Below, in pieces: positions 49,179 through 55,955 of a stretch of 64,000 nucleotides of DNA. The notes beneath the pieces were generated by a model. The model was not told where the DNA came from. It saw only the letters and a list, made by a program, of their open reading frames with translations, and did not search any database. Origin of the DNA: Marinobacter antarcticus (GTDB taxonomy: Bacteria; Pseudomonadota; Gammaproteobacteria; Pseudomonadales; Oleiphilaceae). Position numbers and translations under genes: made by a program. Within the stretch, counting starts at the first letter, position 1; each line of letters opens with the position of its first letter. The stretch lies in NCBI RefSeq assembly GCF_011049865.1, contig NZ_DRGY01000006.1, positions 1 through 64,000 of the forward strand, read 5' to 3'.

Positions 49179-49272
49179 AGAAGCGCGTGGCTGTTTTGCG
49201 GCGCCATGGTTACAATGATTTACAGATATAACCTATTAACTCCCTGCGTTGATCTCACTAAGGAGGTTGCCT

Positions 49273-50529
49273 ATGGCTAGCCAGGAAAACCTGCCGCTAC
49301 GCCGCCTTAAAGCGTTTCAGCCGCTGAACCGGCTGACTGATGATCAATTGGTATTGCTAGCCCATCGTGCGGAACGCAGATCTCACAGCCCGGGCCAACG
49401 GGTACTGGAGCGTGGTGTGCGCGATGGTCTGGATTATTTTCTGGTAACCGGAAAAGTCGAGCTGGAATCGGTTGATGGCCGTAAATCGGTTATTGAAGCC
49501 GAAACCGAGAAAGCCCTGAATCCCATTGCCAGACTTCAGCCCCGAATGTACGAAGTGACTGCGGTAAAACCATGCGAGTTTCTTGTGGTAGAGCAGGATG
49601 TGCTCAACCAACTTCTTCGGTCGGCCCCGGTTGCTCAGGTCGAGATGGACTCGGGTGAAGGCCATGATGGCGGAGAGAGCGAGGAGCATCACCTGCTGAT
49701 GGAGTTTTACGCCGAGCTCCGCTCCAATCAGCTCAAATTGCCCAGTGTTCCTGATGTGGCCTGGAAAGTGCGACGCATGGTCGACCGGGACGATACAACC
49801 GCCGATCAGGTGGCAAGCGCTGTGTCTGCGGATCCGGCGATGGCGGCCAAGCTGGTGCGGGCATGCAACAGCCCGCTTTACCGGGGGTTCAGCGATGTGC
49901 GCAATGTGCGGGAGTCGGTTATTCGGCTGGGCATGAGAACCACGCGCCAGCTTGTCACGGTGTTCTCCATGCGTGAGGTGTTTAAAAGCCGTCAGCCATC
50001 GTTACAAAAAGAGATGGAAAAGCTGTGGCGACATTCCCGCGAAGTAGCCGCACTGTGCTGGGTGCTGGCGGACCATGCTACCCGACTGAACCCGGAAGAA
50101 GCCTTGTTGGCGGGGTTGCTTCACGACATAGGCGTTGTTCCGGTTCTGGTGCAAGCGGAACACCATGTAAAGCTGTTTGCCGACGACGCCAATCTGCAAA
50201 ATGCCATAAGTGAGCTGCGGGCAGACGTTGGCACCGCCGTTCTGGAAAGCTGGTCGTTCCCGCCGGCTTTCGTTGATGCCGTGCGGCACGCAGAAGACTG
50301 GAGTTATGAGAGCCGACAAGCGGATCCACAGCTGGTGGATGTTGTCATTGTGGCGCAGCTTCACGCGATGATTGGTTCCGCCCAGAATGAAGGTTTGCCT
50401 TCATTCGATCAGGTGCCAGCGTACCGCAGGCTCGGCGATCTTCAACTGAACGCCTCCCGCAGCCTGGAGCTCCTCACAGAAGCGCGGGCTCGGGTAGACG
50501 AGGTTCAACAGTTGCTGTCCATCCGATGA
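49273..50529 (+). CDS. cyclic nucleotide-binding-like domain / HDOD signalling protein
   Basis: Cytoplasmic signalling protein. Residues about 10-125 form a cNMP-binding-like beta barrel (RRLKAFQPLNRLTDDQLVLLA, SPGQRVLERG, YFLVTGKVELES), and about 145-345 form an HDOD domain (LPSVPDVAWKVRRMV, SADPAMAAKLVRACNSPLYRG, VIRLGMRTTRQLV, LAGLLHDIG). HDOD proteins lack phosphodiesterase activity but relay signals in motility, biofilm and stress. ATG 49273 (418 aa) has a perfect AAGGAGG seven bases upstream. The stop overlaps the next start (ATGA), coupling it to the Lon-N protein. Confidence 0.86.
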   Translation: MASQENLPLRRLKAFQPLNRLTDDQLVLLAHRAERRSHSPGQRVLERGVRDGLDYFLVTGKVELESVDGRKSVIEAETEKALNPIARLQPRMYEVTAVKPCEFLVVEQDVLNQLLRSAPVAQVEMDSGEGHDGGESEEHHLLMEFYAELRSNQLKLPSVPDVAWKVRRMVDRDDTTADQVASAVSADPAMAAKLVRACNSPLYRGFSDVRNVRESVIRLGMRTTRQLVTVFSMREVFKSRQPSLQKEMEKLWRHSREVAALCWVLADHATRLNPEEALLAGLLHDIGVVPVLVQAEHHVKLFADDANLQNAISELRADVGTAVLESWSFPPAFVDAVRHAEDWSYESRQADPQLVDVVIVAQLHAMIGSAQNEGLPSFDQVPAYRRLGDLQLNASRSLELLTEARARVDEVQQLLSIR

Positions 50530-51104
50530 AAGTGCCTGTTTTTCCTCTCAACTCAGTGGTTTTGCCGGGTGGCAGAATTCCGTTACAGCTGTTTGAGCCT
50601 CGTTATATTGACATGCTGACTCGTTGTCTCAAGACCGATCAGGGTTTTGTGATAACGCTGTTGCGCGACGGCGAGGAGGCCGGGCGCGCAGCGTCTTTTT
50701 ATGAGACAGGGACTCACGTTCGAATTATAGATTTTCAGCAACTGGAGAACGGATTGCTGGGTATTACCGTGGAGGGTGAGGCCAAGGTGTCCATTACCCG
50801 CACATGGCAGCAGGAGGATGGCTTAAATCTGTGCGAGATGGCGCTTCTGCAGGAAGAGGCTTCGGGAAACATTCCCTCCGCTTTTTATGAGCTGCCGTCG
50901 GTGCTGCGCGCGCTCTTCCGGCACCCGGTCATCCAGGAACTGGGTATGAGCGTGAACTATGAGGATGCCCGGGATGTCGGTTGGCGGCTGACTGAGCTGC
51001 TGCCTCTGGATAAACAGGAAAAGCAGTATCTCATGGAGATGCAAGACCCGTTGGCGCGCCTGAGCCGTCTCCAGGGCCTACTTGAGGCCCTTGAAGAAAG
51101 CTGA
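50526..51104 (+). CDS. Lon N-terminal (LAN) substrate-binding domain protein
   Basis: Stand-alone LonN/PUA-like domain protein of 192 aa, without AAA+ or protease domains. The start VPVFPLNSVVLPGGRIPLQLFEPRYIDML is the typical Lon N-domain opening, and a helical tail follows (SVNYEDARDVGWRLTELLPLDKQEKQYLMEMQDPLARL). Its job is unknown; adaptors or peptide binders are suggested for the family. It is translationally coupled to the cNMP/HDOD gene and ends five bases before the convergent DedA-PAP2 gene. Confidence 0.85.
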   Translation: MKVPVFPLNSVVLPGGRIPLQLFEPRYIDMLTRCLKTDQGFVITLLRDGEEAGRAASFYETGTHVRIIDFQQLENGLLGITVEGEAKVSITRTWQQEDGLNLCEMALLQEEASGNIPSAFYELPSVLRALFRHPVIQELGMSVNYEDARDVGWRLTELLPLDKQEKQYLMEMQDPLARLSRLQGLLEALEES

Positions 51105-51109
51105 GCAGA

Positions 51110-52561
51110 TCATGAAGCTGGCGTGTAATTCTGTACGGCATCTGACCACATGAGCCAGAGATAGCCCCCGCAAAACGCCAGCCACGCTAACGTTGCCAGG
51201 ATGAACGATATATCGGCAGCAATAGGAACCCGATCATAACGGCTGAAGCTGGCCCTTGTGGTGCCGGTAATCGCCAGCCCCAGTAAGAGCCCCCCTACAA
51301 TATCGCTGAACCAGTGTACGCCCAGATAAAGCCGGCTGAGGGCAACGGGAACCAGTGGCAACGAGAGCATTATGTATGTCTGCCAGCGCTTGCGTTTGTG
51401 GACTTCCGCTGCCACAAAACTGGCCAACATCGTAAAAAATACGGTTATACCTGTGGCATGGCCACTGGGAAAAGAACCGGATGAGGGCGGATTTGCAACC
51501 TGATCCGGACGCACGATGCCAAAAGTGGATTTCAGACCCCAAACCAGCACAGCGGTTACGATGCCAGCCAGCAGGATGTGAGCAGCTGCGGCGTAGTGAC
51601 CGCGAAATGCCAGCGCGAGGCAGGCCAGTATCGCTGCGGCCGTGAGTACGGGCGGGTCACCCATAAGCGTAGCGGCAATGGCAGGCGCATCAAGCAACGG
51701 CTGGCGCAAATCGTGGAACCACTGCATCACCAGTTGATCGAACGGCTTGATCACATCCGTCATGGTTGCCAGTTGGCTCCAGAGTATAAAAAGCGCAAGG
51801 GTGCCAAGGGCCAGCATTATTGAGGCCAGCGGGAACTCGCCCTCGCGCGCAGGTCGCTCATTGGTGTAAAGGCGCCAGAAGCGATGGGTGTTTTCGTACT
51901 GCGCCATGTGTCTCCGAAGCCAGAGATAAAGGCGGCTGTCTTCGCCAAGCCCGAGTTGGAAACGAAAAATAACCGCGTAAATGATCGCAAGAGTTCCGAG
52001 GCTAATGCTGGTAACCAGATAGACATGCGCCGGGAGCTGAACATTGCTGGTCAGCGCGCTGCCTACCAGAAATCCCGGCAGGATATAAACCGGAGCCCAG
52101 CCAATGGCAGAGCCCACATTAAAGGCCAGAAAGCGGCGCCAAGGCATCAGAAGAGCGCCGGCAACCAACGGAATTACCGGTCTTACTGGGCCAACGAAGC
52201 GGCCGATAATCACACTTTTACCACCGTGATTGCGGAAGAAGTGTTCGCCTTTTTGAATCAGTTCAGGATAGCGGCTCAATGGCCACACGCTGGTCAATCG
52301 GCCTTGAAGGCGCCTGCCAATTGCAAAGCTTACGACGTCTCCGGCGATTGCCCCTAATCCGGCCCAGACAAACGCGGTCAGCAGGGGCATGCCTATCTGC
52401 GCCGCTATTGCCGCGACGGCGAACAGAATTGCCACACCCGGCACAACAATACCTGCAATCGCCAGCGACTCAATAAAAGCAGTGCTGAACAGCGCCAGGG
52501 ACAACCATTCAGGGTTGGCGCTCAGCCACGCAATCAAGTCCGTAAGCCAGACGCTGCTCAT
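51110..52561 (-). CDS. DedA - PAP2 phosphatase fusion membrane protein
   Basis: Bifunctional inner-membrane protein. Residues about 1-205 are DedA-like (VVPGVAIL, GDVVSFAIGRRLQG, RFVGPVRPVIPLVAG), a family that flips or recycles lipid carriers and supports envelope homeostasis. Residues about 245-440 are a PAP2 phosphatase with all three motifs: K344...RP351-352, PSGH 365-368 and SR409-410...H416...D420. It may dephosphorylate undecaprenyl pyrophosphate or phosphatidate. This fusion is known in several Proteobacteria. Here it is the last gene of a three-gene operon, overlapping the GGDEF gene upstream by four bases (ATGA). Confidence 0.9.
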   Translation of the reverse strand: MSSVWLTDLIAWLSANPEWLSLALFSTAFIESLAIAGIVVPGVAILFAVAAIAAQIGMPLLTAFVWAGLGAIAGDVVSFAIGRRLQGRLTSVWPLSRYPELIQKGEHFFRNHGGKSVIIGRFVGPVRPVIPLVAGALLMPWRRFLAFNVGSAIGWAPVYILPGFLVGSALTSNVQLPAHVYLVTSISLGTLAIIYAVIFRFQLGLGEDSRLYLWLRRHMAQYENTHRFWRLYTNERPAREGEFPLASIMLALGTLALFILWSQLATMTDVIKPFDQLVMQWFHDLRQPLLDAPAIAATLMGDPPVLTAAAILACLALAFRGHYAAAAHILLAGIVTAVLVWGLKSTFGIVRPDQVANPPSSGSFPSGHATGITVFFTMLASFVAAEVHKRKRWQTYIMLSLPLVPVALSRLYLGVHWFSDIVGGLLLGLAITGTTRASFSRYDRVPIAADISFILATLAWLAFCGGYLWLMWSDAVQNYTPAS

Positions 52562-53556
52562 GTGCGCAGTGTCTCTCCCGGGGTGAACCAGGCGGAGTCT
52601 GCGCCGCGTCGGCGGGCTTCAAGCATGGCTTGGTGGGCGCGCTTGCGCAGCGTGTCAGTGCGAGTGTCGTTGTTACCCCGGGTCGTGCAGCCAAGACTTA
52701 CCGTAGCCTTTCCGATCATCGGCCATTGGCTTTCGGCGATCGTACGTCTTATACGTTCAGAAATCACCCGCACGCCTTCTTCCGGAGTGAAAGGCAAAAT
52801 GAGAAAGAACTCCGAGTCGTTCAACGTATACAGAGTGTCACCAGCGCGAATCACTCCGAACAGATGTTGGGTCATGTTGCAAAACAGCCCCTGCATGCCG
52901 GGTTTGCCGTGCAGGTCTGCGGCTTCGTCGGCGTAATCTATGGTCAGGTTGATCACTGAGAGGCTATGACCGGTGGAAATTGCCCGGCTGATTTCTTTCT
53001 GAAGTGTTTCGTCAAGAAATCGAGCATTGTGGGCGCCTGTCACGGGATCGGTAATCGCAAGATCTTCCGCAGACTGTGCCATGTGATCGTAATGCCATAT
53101 ATAAAGTGCTGTGACCGTAAGCACAATGAGCAGGCCACTGACCGCGGTGAGGGCGTCGGCGAGCGGTTGTTGTGTAAAGAGCAGAATCGCCATGGGGATG
53201 ATCAGAAGCAGCGACAACGTAAGCGCTTGACGCAAGGGCAGAATCAGCAGATTGAGCACCAGTAGGGGCATGGCCCAATGGGTAATGCCGGTGCTGTTCA
53301 TGGTTAACATAGCCGCTAAAAGGCCGCTGTTCAGGCCAGAGAGAATGGCAAGATGACCGGGCGCGGAGAGCTGGTGCCTTCTACACAGGAACGTATAGGC
53401 AACGCCCGCAAGCGTCAGGGCGGCCATACCGGCAGCAAGGTAGAAAAGCTCGTAAAAGCCATAGCGCAGGTTCTGCAGGGCCAGAGTAAAAATAAACAAG
53501 GTAGCAAGGCTGTAGCCAACGCTGTGTGTCCAGGTTCTGAGCCGGGTTTCAGTCAT
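52558..53556 (-). CDS. membrane protein with degenerate GGDEF domain (A)
   Basis: 332 aa. Residues about 13-155 hold roughly five to six transmembrane helices, then a GGDEF-type domain starts at ITDPVTGAHNARFLDETL (168-185). The signature that should read GGDEF is NDSEF (246-250), so diguanylate cyclase activity is unlikely. The inhibitory-site motif RxxD is kept as RAGD (237-240), exactly five residues before the signature, so c-di-GMP could still bind. It overlaps its upstream paralogue and the downstream DedA-PAP2 gene by four bases each. Confidence 0.88.
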   Translation of the reverse strand: MTETRLRTWTHSVGYSLATLFIFTLALQNLRYGFYELFYLAAGMAALTLAGVAYTFLCRRHQLSAPGHLAILSGLNSGLLAAMLTMNSTGITHWAMPLLVLNLLILPLRQALTLSLLLIIPMAILLFTQQPLADALTAVSGLLIVLTVTALYIWHYDHMAQSAEDLAITDPVTGAHNARFLDETLQKEISRAISTGHSLSVINLTIDYADEAADLHGKPGMQGLFCNMTQHLFGVIRAGDTLYTLNDSEFFLILPFTPEEGVRVISERIRRTIAESQWPMIGKATVSLGCTTRGNNDTRTDTLRKRAHQAMLEARRRGADSAWFTPGETLRT

Positions 53557-54566
53557 GGCGCAGTTCCTTCCGCCCGTTTTTGGGCCGGGGTGGTGGGTGT
53601 CCAGGCGCTGTAGGCCTGAGTTCGGTTGCCGCCCTGTTGCTGTGCGCGGCGCAGTGCGTTGGCTGCGCTCTGTTGCAGGCTGTCTGCATCATCGCCTATG
53701 TTCAGCCCGGCGATACCGGTACTGGTGGTAAGATTCAAGCCATGGGTTTCGAGAAGGGTGCCAAGGCCCTTGCGGATAGCTTCAGCCCGAAGAATGGCCT
53801 CGTGGGTCGCTATGCCCGGTAAAATCACGAGAAACTGAAGGTCTGCCGCCCGGTAGTAGGTGTCAAAATCCCTTATCTGCGAGTGAAGGAACCGGCCGAT
53901 TCTGGGAAGAATTGAGCGTATGTCTTGCTCCGGATCGCTATCGCTGGCGTGGGCGTCCAGGCCGATCACAATGATGGACATGTCTGTTCCTTCGCGCTCG
54001 CTACGCTGTATTTCCTTATGCAAATCTGCAGAAAGGTATTCTCGGCTGGCAGCCTGAGTGAGTTCGTCGGTGCGCCTCAGAGGTGCCAACTGGCGGGCTT
54101 TATAGTTACGCAGAAAGACGACCACCGCAGAAAGCAGAATGGTCAGCAAGAACGCGCTGATCATTTGGTGACGATCAGCGATGCCCTCGGCCCAGTGGGC
54201 GGCGGCCATTGCAAGAGCGGCCATCACTATGGTTATCAGCGTTGCGATTCCACGGGGGACCAGTGCAAACGCAACCAGTACCAGCCCGTACAGCCAGTGA
54301 CTGAGCGCCCAAGGACCGGTCCAGAAACTGGTTATCAGCAGTAATATCAAAGCTGCGAAAAACAGCTGTTGAATGGCCGGCCATGGGCTGATCTCGCGTC
54401 CCGGATGAAAGCCGGGCCCGCTGATGATGATGCCTGCAACCGCTGCGGCGCTGGCTGCGGTGAGCGGTTCGCCAAGAAATGCACACAAAACTGAAACGGC
54501 CACAAACACCACGAGACTGGCGCGTGATAGTCGGTTCAGCAAAAATTTGTCGGCCGTTTGGGCCAT
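53553..54566 (-). CDS. membrane protein with degenerate GGDEF domain (B)
   Basis: 337 aa paralogue of the next gene in the operon. Transmembrane helices lie at about 15-50, 66-82 and 90-152, and the GGDEF-type domain begins at RRTDELTQAASREYLSADL (164-182). The signature reads ADLQF (241-245) in YYRAADLQFLVILP, losing the catalytic Gly-Gly and acidic residues. The RxxD motif is present as RDFD (232-235) with canonical spacing. First gene of the three-gene operon; its stop overlaps the next start (ATGA). Divergent from proA. Confidence 0.88.
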   Translation of the reverse strand: MAQTADKFLLNRLSRASLVVFVAVSVLCAFLGEPLTAASAAAVAGIIISGPGFHPGREISPWPAIQQLFFAALILLLITSFWTGPWALSHWLYGLVLVAFALVPRGIATLITIVMAALAMAAAHWAEGIADRHQMISAFLLTILLSAVVVFLRNYKARQLAPLRRTDELTQAASREYLSADLHKEIQRSEREGTDMSIIVIGLDAHASDSDPEQDIRSILPRIGRFLHSQIRDFDTYYRAADLQFLVILPGIATHEAILRAEAIRKGLGTLLETHGLNLTTSTGIAGLNIGDDADSLQQSAANALRRAQQQGGNRTQAYSAWTPTTPAQKRAEGTAP

Positions 54567-54606
54567 GTAATCGTCCTTTTTCGGGATTCCCGTTGTAGCG
54601 CAACGG

Positions 54607-54612
54607 TATAAT
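54607..54612 (+). promoter_or_regulatory. possible -10 box of the proA operon
   Basis: A perfect TATAAT lies 86 bases before proA in the divergent gap. The region 16-18 bases upstream has no good -35 match, so confidence is limited. Confidence 0.35.
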
Positions 54613-54698
54613 ATCTGTTTGAGGTGCGTACTTGAAACGGGAAAGGTAAAGTTAGGGCCTTAATCGTGAATTCTGGCAAAAATACTTAAGGTAAAGGG

Positions 54699-55955
54699 AT
54701 GGATATTGCAGTTTATATGGCCGACGTCGGGCAAAAGGCACGTGCAGCGGCAACACACATTGCGCGTTCTACGACCGAGGTGCGAAACCGTGCGCTTTTG
54801 GCCACTGCTGAAGCGCTGGATGCCGCCCGCGACGAACTGGCCAGCGCAAATGCCCGCGATCTTGCGGGCGGGAAGGAAAGCGGTCTGGATGCTGCCATGC
54901 TGGATCGACTGGAGCTGACTCCCGCGCGAGTCGACGCCATGATTGAGGGGCTTCGCCAGGTTGCCGCTTTACCTGATCCTATTGGTGCAATTACCGACAT
55001 GACCTATCGCCCCTCCGGCATACAGGTGGGCAAAATGCGCGTGCCCTTGGGCGTTATCGGCATTATTTACGAATCCCGCCCTAATGTGACAGTTGAAGCT
55101 GCGAGCCTGTGCCTGAAATCTGGCAACGCCACCATTTTACGCGGTGGTTCTGAATCCATTCATTCCAATCAGGCGATCGCGCTGTGCCTCGCACGCGGAC
55201 TTGCGGCGGCAGGCCTGCCGGAATCGGCCGTGCAAGTGATTAAAACCATCGACCGGGCTGCGGTCGGTGAACTCATTACCATGCCTGACTACGTGGATGT
55301 GATCGTGCCCAGAGGCGGCAAGGGGCTGATCGAGCGGATCAGCCGCGACGCCCGCGTGCCCGTTATCAAGCATCTGGATGGCGTGTGTCATGTTTATATC
55401 GACAGCCACGCCGATCCGGAAAAAGCCTTGAACGTTGCCATAAATTCCAAAACCCACCGCTATGGCACCTGCAACACCATGGAGACCTTGTTAGTCGACA
55501 AGGAAATTGCCGCCGATATGCTTTCGCTGTTGGGCCCGGCTTTTATCGAGAAAGGTGTTGAGCTGCGCGGGTGCGAGCAGACTCGGGAAATTCTTGCGGA
55601 CATAAAAGCTGCCACGGAGGCAGATTGGGAGGAAGAATACCTGGCGCCCGTGCTGGCCGTCCGCGTAGTGGACGGGCTGGACGGCGCCATTGCACACATC
55701 AACCGTTACAGCTCCCAGCACACCGACAGCATCATTACAGAGAACTATACTCGTGCCCGGCGCTTCATCACCGAAGTTGATTCAAGCTCTGTGATGGTTA
55801 ACGCATCCACCCGCTTTGCGGATGGATTTGAGTATGGGCTTGGCGCTGAGATCGGTATCTCAACGGATAAAATACACGCCCGTGGTCCGGTTGGACTTGA
55901 GGGGCTGACCTCGCAGAAATATGTGGTTTTTGGCGACGGCCACATTCGGGCATGA
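54699..55955 (+). CDS. proA: gamma-glutamyl phosphate reductase
   Basis: NADPH-dependent reductase of proline synthesis that makes glutamate semialdehyde from gamma-glutamyl phosphate. Family blocks: [63 protein letters not shown] (containing the active-site Cys) and [24 protein letters not shown]. Length of 418 aa is normal. nadD starts in its stop region (four-base overlap), the usual proA-nadD arrangement. Confidence 0.96.

Follow-up and report, generated by a model that had tools for sequence, protein, structure and literature searches.

What is the function of two membrane proteins that have the fold of a diguanylate cyclase without its catalytic signature, and that are encoded directly upstream of a DedA–PAP2 fusion protein? 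The question is raised by a three-gene operon, here called A, B and C, in a window of 64,000 nucleotides of Marinobacter antarcticus (RefSeq assembly GCF_011049865.1, contig NZ_DRGY01000006.1, positions 1 to 64,000). All three genes lie on the minus strand, and two 4-base ATGA overlaps join A to B and B to C (Table 1); the initial annotation of the sequence had described this layout, and its coordinates, strand and both overlaps were borne out. We lean towards a reading in which A and B are tandem membrane pseudo-diguanylate cyclases that form a receptor for cyclic di-GMP (c-di-GMP), with C as its likeliest target.

Pfam assigned a GGDEF domain to both A (E = 1e-14) and B (E = 7.5e-20). AlphaFold2 modelled B as membrane helices, a linker helix and a GGDEF-type fold (mean pLDDT 86.7, pTM 0.56), and A in the same way with lower confidence (mean pLDDT 79.3, pTM 0.53). 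The best Foldseek matches of both models were GGDEF proteins, including WspR, SiaD, PleD and ImcA, some of them bound to c-di-GMP; the fold is that of the degenerate GGDEF receptors of the PelD and BcsE kind. At the signature site A has ADLQF and B has NDSEF, as first read, each in register and five residues past an RxxD motif (RDFD in A, RAGD in B). Within the family of M. antarcticus (the own family, f1; 163 genomes of 16 genera, 142 of them rated good), GG(D/E)EF occurs in 0 of 89 A and 0 of 90 B sequences; it is found in none of the 76-row cross-family sets, and GG(D/E)(E/Q)F is likewise absent from every aligned A or B sequence. Profile comparison related A to B across 322 columns that take in the membrane part (hhalign probability 99.9), which upholds their earlier description as paralogues; a single-sequence search within the genome lent it less, ranking B (4.6e-14) barely ahead of the next GGDEF protein (2.8e-13) as a relative of A.

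A dead GGDEF domain with a live inhibitory site (I-site) is already known from PelD and BcsE. Binding of c-di-GMP by PelD requires RxxD and a third arginine (R367, D370 and R402 in Pseudomonas aeruginosa; PMC7112168), which correspond to R237, D240 and R268 of B, and WspR, which shares the fold of A and B, binds c-di-GMP through R242xxD245 together with R198 from a symmetry-related neighbouring domain (PMC2270323). In B, these three residues and R191 are invariant in all 89 readable own-family sequences, in 9 of 9 from family f38 and in 50 of 50 from family f36; both sequences from family f7 keep R191, R237 and D240 and have R268K. The own-family set has 90 rows, the unreadable one being a shortened B from an own-genus genome (L033:737-1495, 252 aa as called) in which the I-site region is missing. 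Among the f36 sequences, whose mean pairwise domain identity is 0.41, seven of 162 well-aligned columns are at least 98% conserved (E188, R191, G217, R237, D240, R268 and R306), and four of the seven are the I-site residues.

As a control we took the best 30 of 40 GGDEF matches in the same genome, a few of them with near-canonical signatures (SGDEF, AGDEF, GGDEL). RxxD was present in 24 of the 30, the R191 equivalent in 12, the R268 equivalent in 12 and all four residues in 4; two alignments of the set differed slightly at the RxxD positions (R 27 and D 26 versus R 28 and D 25). RxxD is thus the usual state of GGDEF domains, and we rejected its presence in a single sequence as evidence. The earlier argument that both proteins carry an RxxD I-site with exact spacing held as to presence and carries little weight alone; its force comes solely from conservation across orthologues, which for an in-register RxxD extends over four families in B, and in A over f1, f38 and f7 with 4 of 50 sequences in f36. 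Four residues that stay constant in a dead domain speak strongly for a predicted c-di-GMP site, where RxxD alone would be weak. Judged from these alignments, c-di-GMP binding by an A–B receptor is very probable. Of the proposal that the operon is a c-di-GMP-sensing module controlling lipid-carrier recycling, the sensing part is supported by this conserved I-site, mainly that of B, and the lipid-carrier output stays at the level of a plausible hypothesis.

Gene A shows a different pattern. Its RxxD is kept throughout the own family, f38 and f7; a full RxxD is found in 4 of 50 f36 sequences (R in 12, D in 4, E in 46). By contrast R188, at the position of WspR R198, is kept in 89 of 89 own-family, 8 of 9 f38, 2 of 2 f7 and 50 of 50 f36 sequences. 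Loss of RxxD with retention of R188 in f36 fits A serving as partner of the putative B site, and A and B probably form a complex.

We propose that A and B would make no c-di-GMP and would act as its receptor. B would hold the ligand in its I-site through R237, D240 and R268, joined by an arginine in the place equivalent to WspR R198, and A would be its membrane partner, probably completing the site or locking the complex through R188. Binding would alter the packing of the A and B cytoplasmic domains, a change that may be relayed to the membrane helices. In M. antarcticus the co-translated C, thought to dephosphorylate and return the polyprenyl lipid carrier, would be the likeliest target, and c-di-GMP would then tune lipid-carrier supply as demand for envelope or matrix polysaccharide shifts. 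Action of A–B on C is a tentative step that we place a little short of even, and the fullest form of the model, an asymmetric two-chain receptor that clamps the ligand between the B I-site and A R188 in trans and gates DedA–PAP2 in most of these bacteria, is unlikely.

Gene neighbourhoods, proposed with the initial annotation as a check, showed the three genes to be commonly adjacent. B was found at E ≤ 1e-30 in 159 of 163 own-family genomes, including 142 of 142 good ones, and C at E ≤ 1e-60 in 152 (136 of the good ones). At 60 own-family loci read, A and B lie on one strand in 59, 54 of them overlapping as called, and in the sixtieth (L070) a contig edge falls inside A. C follows B in 55 of the 60, with 37 overlaps as called, and five loci, in genera g4 and g14, have A–B without C; each open reading frame was taken to begin at the earliest start codon following a stop, which over-calls some of the overlaps. 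The A–B–C block is intact at three loci (L068, L074 and L075) from which the neighbouring proA has moved away, so that proA synteny alone does not explain the linkage.

When 293 genomes of the order were searched, f38 (9 genomes, E ≤ 4.2e-55) and f7 (G210 and G168) proved to have clear orthologues of B as well as the own family, with ordinary GGDEF domains scoring below them, near 1e-31, in the same search. The A–B tandem adjoins proA in 9 of 9 f38 and 2 of 2 f7 genomes, and C is present in both f7 genomes. Near the f38 tandem, 6 of 9 genomes have a DedA-only protein of about 195 aa with the PAP2 half missing (L110:5175-5762, L108, L111, L112, L113 and L114; Pfam on one). Of 18 further regions from other families, 17 have C, 15 of these without adjoining A–B; in the remaining two (L129 and L131, both f36) a much diverged A–B pair precedes C. 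A directed search of f36, which by our guess is probably Halomonadaceae (as f20 is, at a guess, Pseudomonadaceae), found a B match at E ≤ 1e-10 in 130 of 151 genomes and 18 of 24 genera, with matches reaching E = 3.9e-12 and the weak ones read in part. One B in that search (G577) fell into two pieces that share a frame and was counted as intact. We read 50 f36 loci, a non-random set made up of the best 30 B matches and 20 picked for divergence: A precedes B in all 50, C follows B in 42 and was not seen in 8. In genus g134 an EamA-type transporter gene replaces C after B (L207:2416-3267 and L212:4196-5047, assigned by Pfam; L211:2426-3283 and L215:2411-3271, by similarity judged by eye). In total, A–B without adjoining C was found at 13 loci in five genera (g4, g14, g133, g134 and a single genome of g73), and at each of them the four I-site residues of B are intact. 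The closest named relatives of B are from Marinobacter, up to 91% identical; among the 80 loci listed by a contig search with B, all are titled Marinobacter except one titled Halomonas, and no plasmid was matched when B was searched by tblastn.

C combines two Pfam domains, VTT/DedA (8.5e-16) and PAP2 (7.5e-16), and its PAP2 residues K344/R351/P352, P365/S366/H368 and R410/H416/D420 are invariant in 27 aligned own-family sequences, bearing out the claim of a DedA–PAP2 fusion with intact catalytic motifs. All the motifs that we take to define PAP2, KxxxxxxRP, PSGH and SRxxxxxHxxxD, are found in C. In the DedA part, E31, D75, R121 and R127 are invariant in the same 27 rows, and by our own reading of the sequence they may be the acidic and basic residues at the re-entrant helix tips of COG0586-type DedA proteins, the role of which has been discussed (PMC10127716). 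COG0586 DedA proteins are putative flippases of undecaprenyl phosphate (Und-P, also C55-P), and fusions to PAP2 have been noted earlier (PMC10127716).

The domain order of C is that of PA4011 (PapP) of P. aeruginosa, which shares a PhoP-controlled operon with the 3-methyladenine DNA glycosylase gene PA4010. It helps to keep the outer membrane intact under polymyxin B: mutants have leaky outer membranes and survive the drug less well, with an unchanged minimum inhibitory concentration (PMC7916210). Deletion of PA4011 also reduces the emergence of colistin resistance, and PA4011 is unable to replace the flippase PA4029 (PMC12893004). The two differ in context: a Pseudomonas-like locus, L142, has no A–B beside C. 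There, a methylpurine-DNA glycosylase gene overlaps the DedA–PAP2 gene (L142:5084-7113), as in the PA4010–PA4011 operon, and this gene order suggests that L142 is the PA4011 locus. We therefore assign C to the handling of envelope lipids, and lineages place it in different operons. The polyprenyl lipid carrier may be its substrate, at about even chances.

A link between the tandem and the c-di-GMP machinery is suggested by f36, in which 5 of 8 genomes with at most five GGDEF matches have no B, versus 16 of 143 others (Fisher p = 0.0014, uncorrected for relatedness); low counts alone were used, the counts being at least about 22 for many genomes. Several observations weigh against a c-di-GMP receptor that acts on C. 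Those 16 genomes, ten of them from g51 and three from g136, have more than five GGDEF matches without B, so the machinery can persist without A–B. RxxD is common in GGDEF domains, and I-site residues could be kept for folding. A has no conserved third arginine; an initial statement that it never has one was dropped on recount, with R at position 263 in 5 of 89 own-family and 3 of 50 f36 sequences. In f36, B keeps R191 although most A have no I-site to receive it, which a strict one-way donor model leaves unexplained and which weakens that model. The same f36 helix of A keeps E185 (50 of 50) and R191 (49 of 50) as well as R188, so helix packing could explain R188. A–B and C are often but not always adjacent, as the 13 loci and 15 of 17 regions above attest. 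Finally, deletion of PA4011 left fosmidomycin susceptibility, a proxy for C55-P recycling, unchanged, and its function was called elusive (PMC12893004).

The most serious alternative, somewhat below an even chance, retains c-di-GMP binding by A–B and lets the pair act on something else than C, for instance on machinery elsewhere for the envelope or for a polysaccharide, with C an old co-transcribed neighbour at an envelope locus. The intact B I-site at all 13 loci without adjoining C, the EamA-type transporter that follows B in g134 (Pfam in two of the four loci) and the C regions of other families without A–B speak for it. It sits less well with C after B in 97 of the 110 f1 and f36 loci read, often overlapping, or with f38 keeping A–B with a DedA-only protein near by.

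Alternatively, A and B could be structural scaffolds without a nucleotide ligand, with RxxD and the helix arginines serving folding or A–B contacts, an explanation that draws on the 24 of 30 control domains with RxxD, on E185/E188 and further non-I-site residues that are equally fixed, and on B R191 being kept where A has no I-site. The fixed f36 B columns stand against it, four of the seven being exactly the I-site residues, a set present in full in just 4 of 30 control domains; moreover A, with the same fold, lost RxxD in 46 of 50 f36 sequences, so RxxD is evidently not needed for A to exist. We regard scaffolds as decidedly improbable.

It is more doubtful still, and very improbable, that A or B is a weak diguanylate cyclase with RxxD as ordinary product inhibition: some degenerate signatures are active, such as that of an AGDEF enzyme (PMC3974145), but GG(D/E)(E/Q)F is found in none of the A or B sequences, and the signature site holds 27 different pentapeptides in 89 A rows and 52 in 90 B rows. 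We softened a claim of free drift of the A signature, since ADLQF occurs in 58 of the 89 rows and drift is seen beyond the closest relatives. Decay of a broken cyclase pair drifting inside a syntenic region, for which the lost catalytic motif and the failure of Pfam on A in one f36 and one f7 member might speak, is next to impossible given B in every good own-family genome and open frames with fixed residues over four families, a conservation that already contradicts it.

The receptor that we favour differs from the known ones in its parts. PelD, the c-di-GMP receptor for secretion of the Pel polysaccharide, is encoded in pel operons and has a GAF domain, set between its membrane part and GGDEF (PMC7112168), whereas Pfam matched no GAF domain in A or B up to E = 1, and B has a paralogous partner and adjoins DedA–PAP2 and proA. 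BcsE, a GIL-domain protein of cellulose secretion, is likewise a degenerate GGDEF protein with RxxD, and a composite site of two degenerate domains raises its affinity from about 2.5 µM to about 140 nM (PMC11470070). In BcsE a REC* domain on the same polypeptide supplies the second half, a part that would here fall to another GGDEF-type membrane protein. Unlike A and B, which are membrane proteins without the signature, WspR and PleD are response regulators with catalytic activity. We did not find the form with two genes and two membrane proteins beside DedA–PAP2 in searches of the open-licence PMC literature: papers on DedA, c-di-GMP and GGDEF were off topic by title and start of abstract, and none were found for undecaprenyl with degenerate GGDEF or for proA, degenerate GGDEF and Marinobacter.

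If correct, a large bacterial group carries an unrecognized c-di-GMP receptor, half of which escapes Pfam in the f36 and f7 members tested: at E ≤ 0.01 there was no match for A in one member of each (L129:4199-5068 and L116:6946-7881), and these genes were recognizable only through position and profile search. It would also show a paralogous pair of dead enzymes sharing one ligand site and offer a testable link between a biofilm signal and the lipid-carrier supply common to peptidoglycan, lipopolysaccharide and exopolysaccharide. Were C gated, this would be a first direct c-di-GMP control of lipid-carrier recycling. The receptor would also open a way to study C, the P. aeruginosa equivalent of which shows phenotypes without an agreed function.

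Table 1 Features of the A–B–C operon, in coordinates of the window
Feature	Coordinates	Strand	Remarks
Gene A	53553..54566	(-)	337 aa; membrane helices, long linker helix, pseudo-GGDEF domain
A R188 codon	54003..54005	(-)	Equivalent to WspR R198, the arginine given in trans
A RxxD (R232-D235)	53862..53873	(-)	Kept in f1, f38 and f7; full RxxD in 4/50 in f36
A degenerate GGDEF signature ADLQF	53832..53846	(-)	
ATGA overlap, A stop / B start	53553..53556	(-)	
Gene B	52558..53556	(-)	332 aa; membrane helices (residues 3-129), linker helix 132-166, pseudo-GGDEF domain
B R191 codon	52984..52986	(-)	Position of WspR R198
B RxxD (R237-D240)	52837..52848	(-)	Core of predicted c-di-GMP site
B degenerate GGDEF signature NDSEF	52807..52821	(-)	
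B R268 codon	52753..52755	(-)	Third I-site arginine, PelD R402 type
ATGA overlap, B stop / C start	52558..52561	(-)	
Gene C	51110..52561	(-)	483 aa; DedA (VTT) residues 40-163, PAP2 residues 329-435

A scan of positions 50900-54800 for promoters and terminators found no promoter-like site, and terminators were at chance level. Upstream of the operon and divergent from it lies a proA-type gene (54699-55955), with nadD- and rsfS-type genes beyond; these labels, and that of mrdA, were assigned from reading of the translations. Downstream and convergent, at 49249-51104, are a gene with a LON-substrate-binding domain and then one coding for an HDOD protein that also has a cNMP-binding domain; genes of these two kinds adjoin the operon in many of the own-family loci read.

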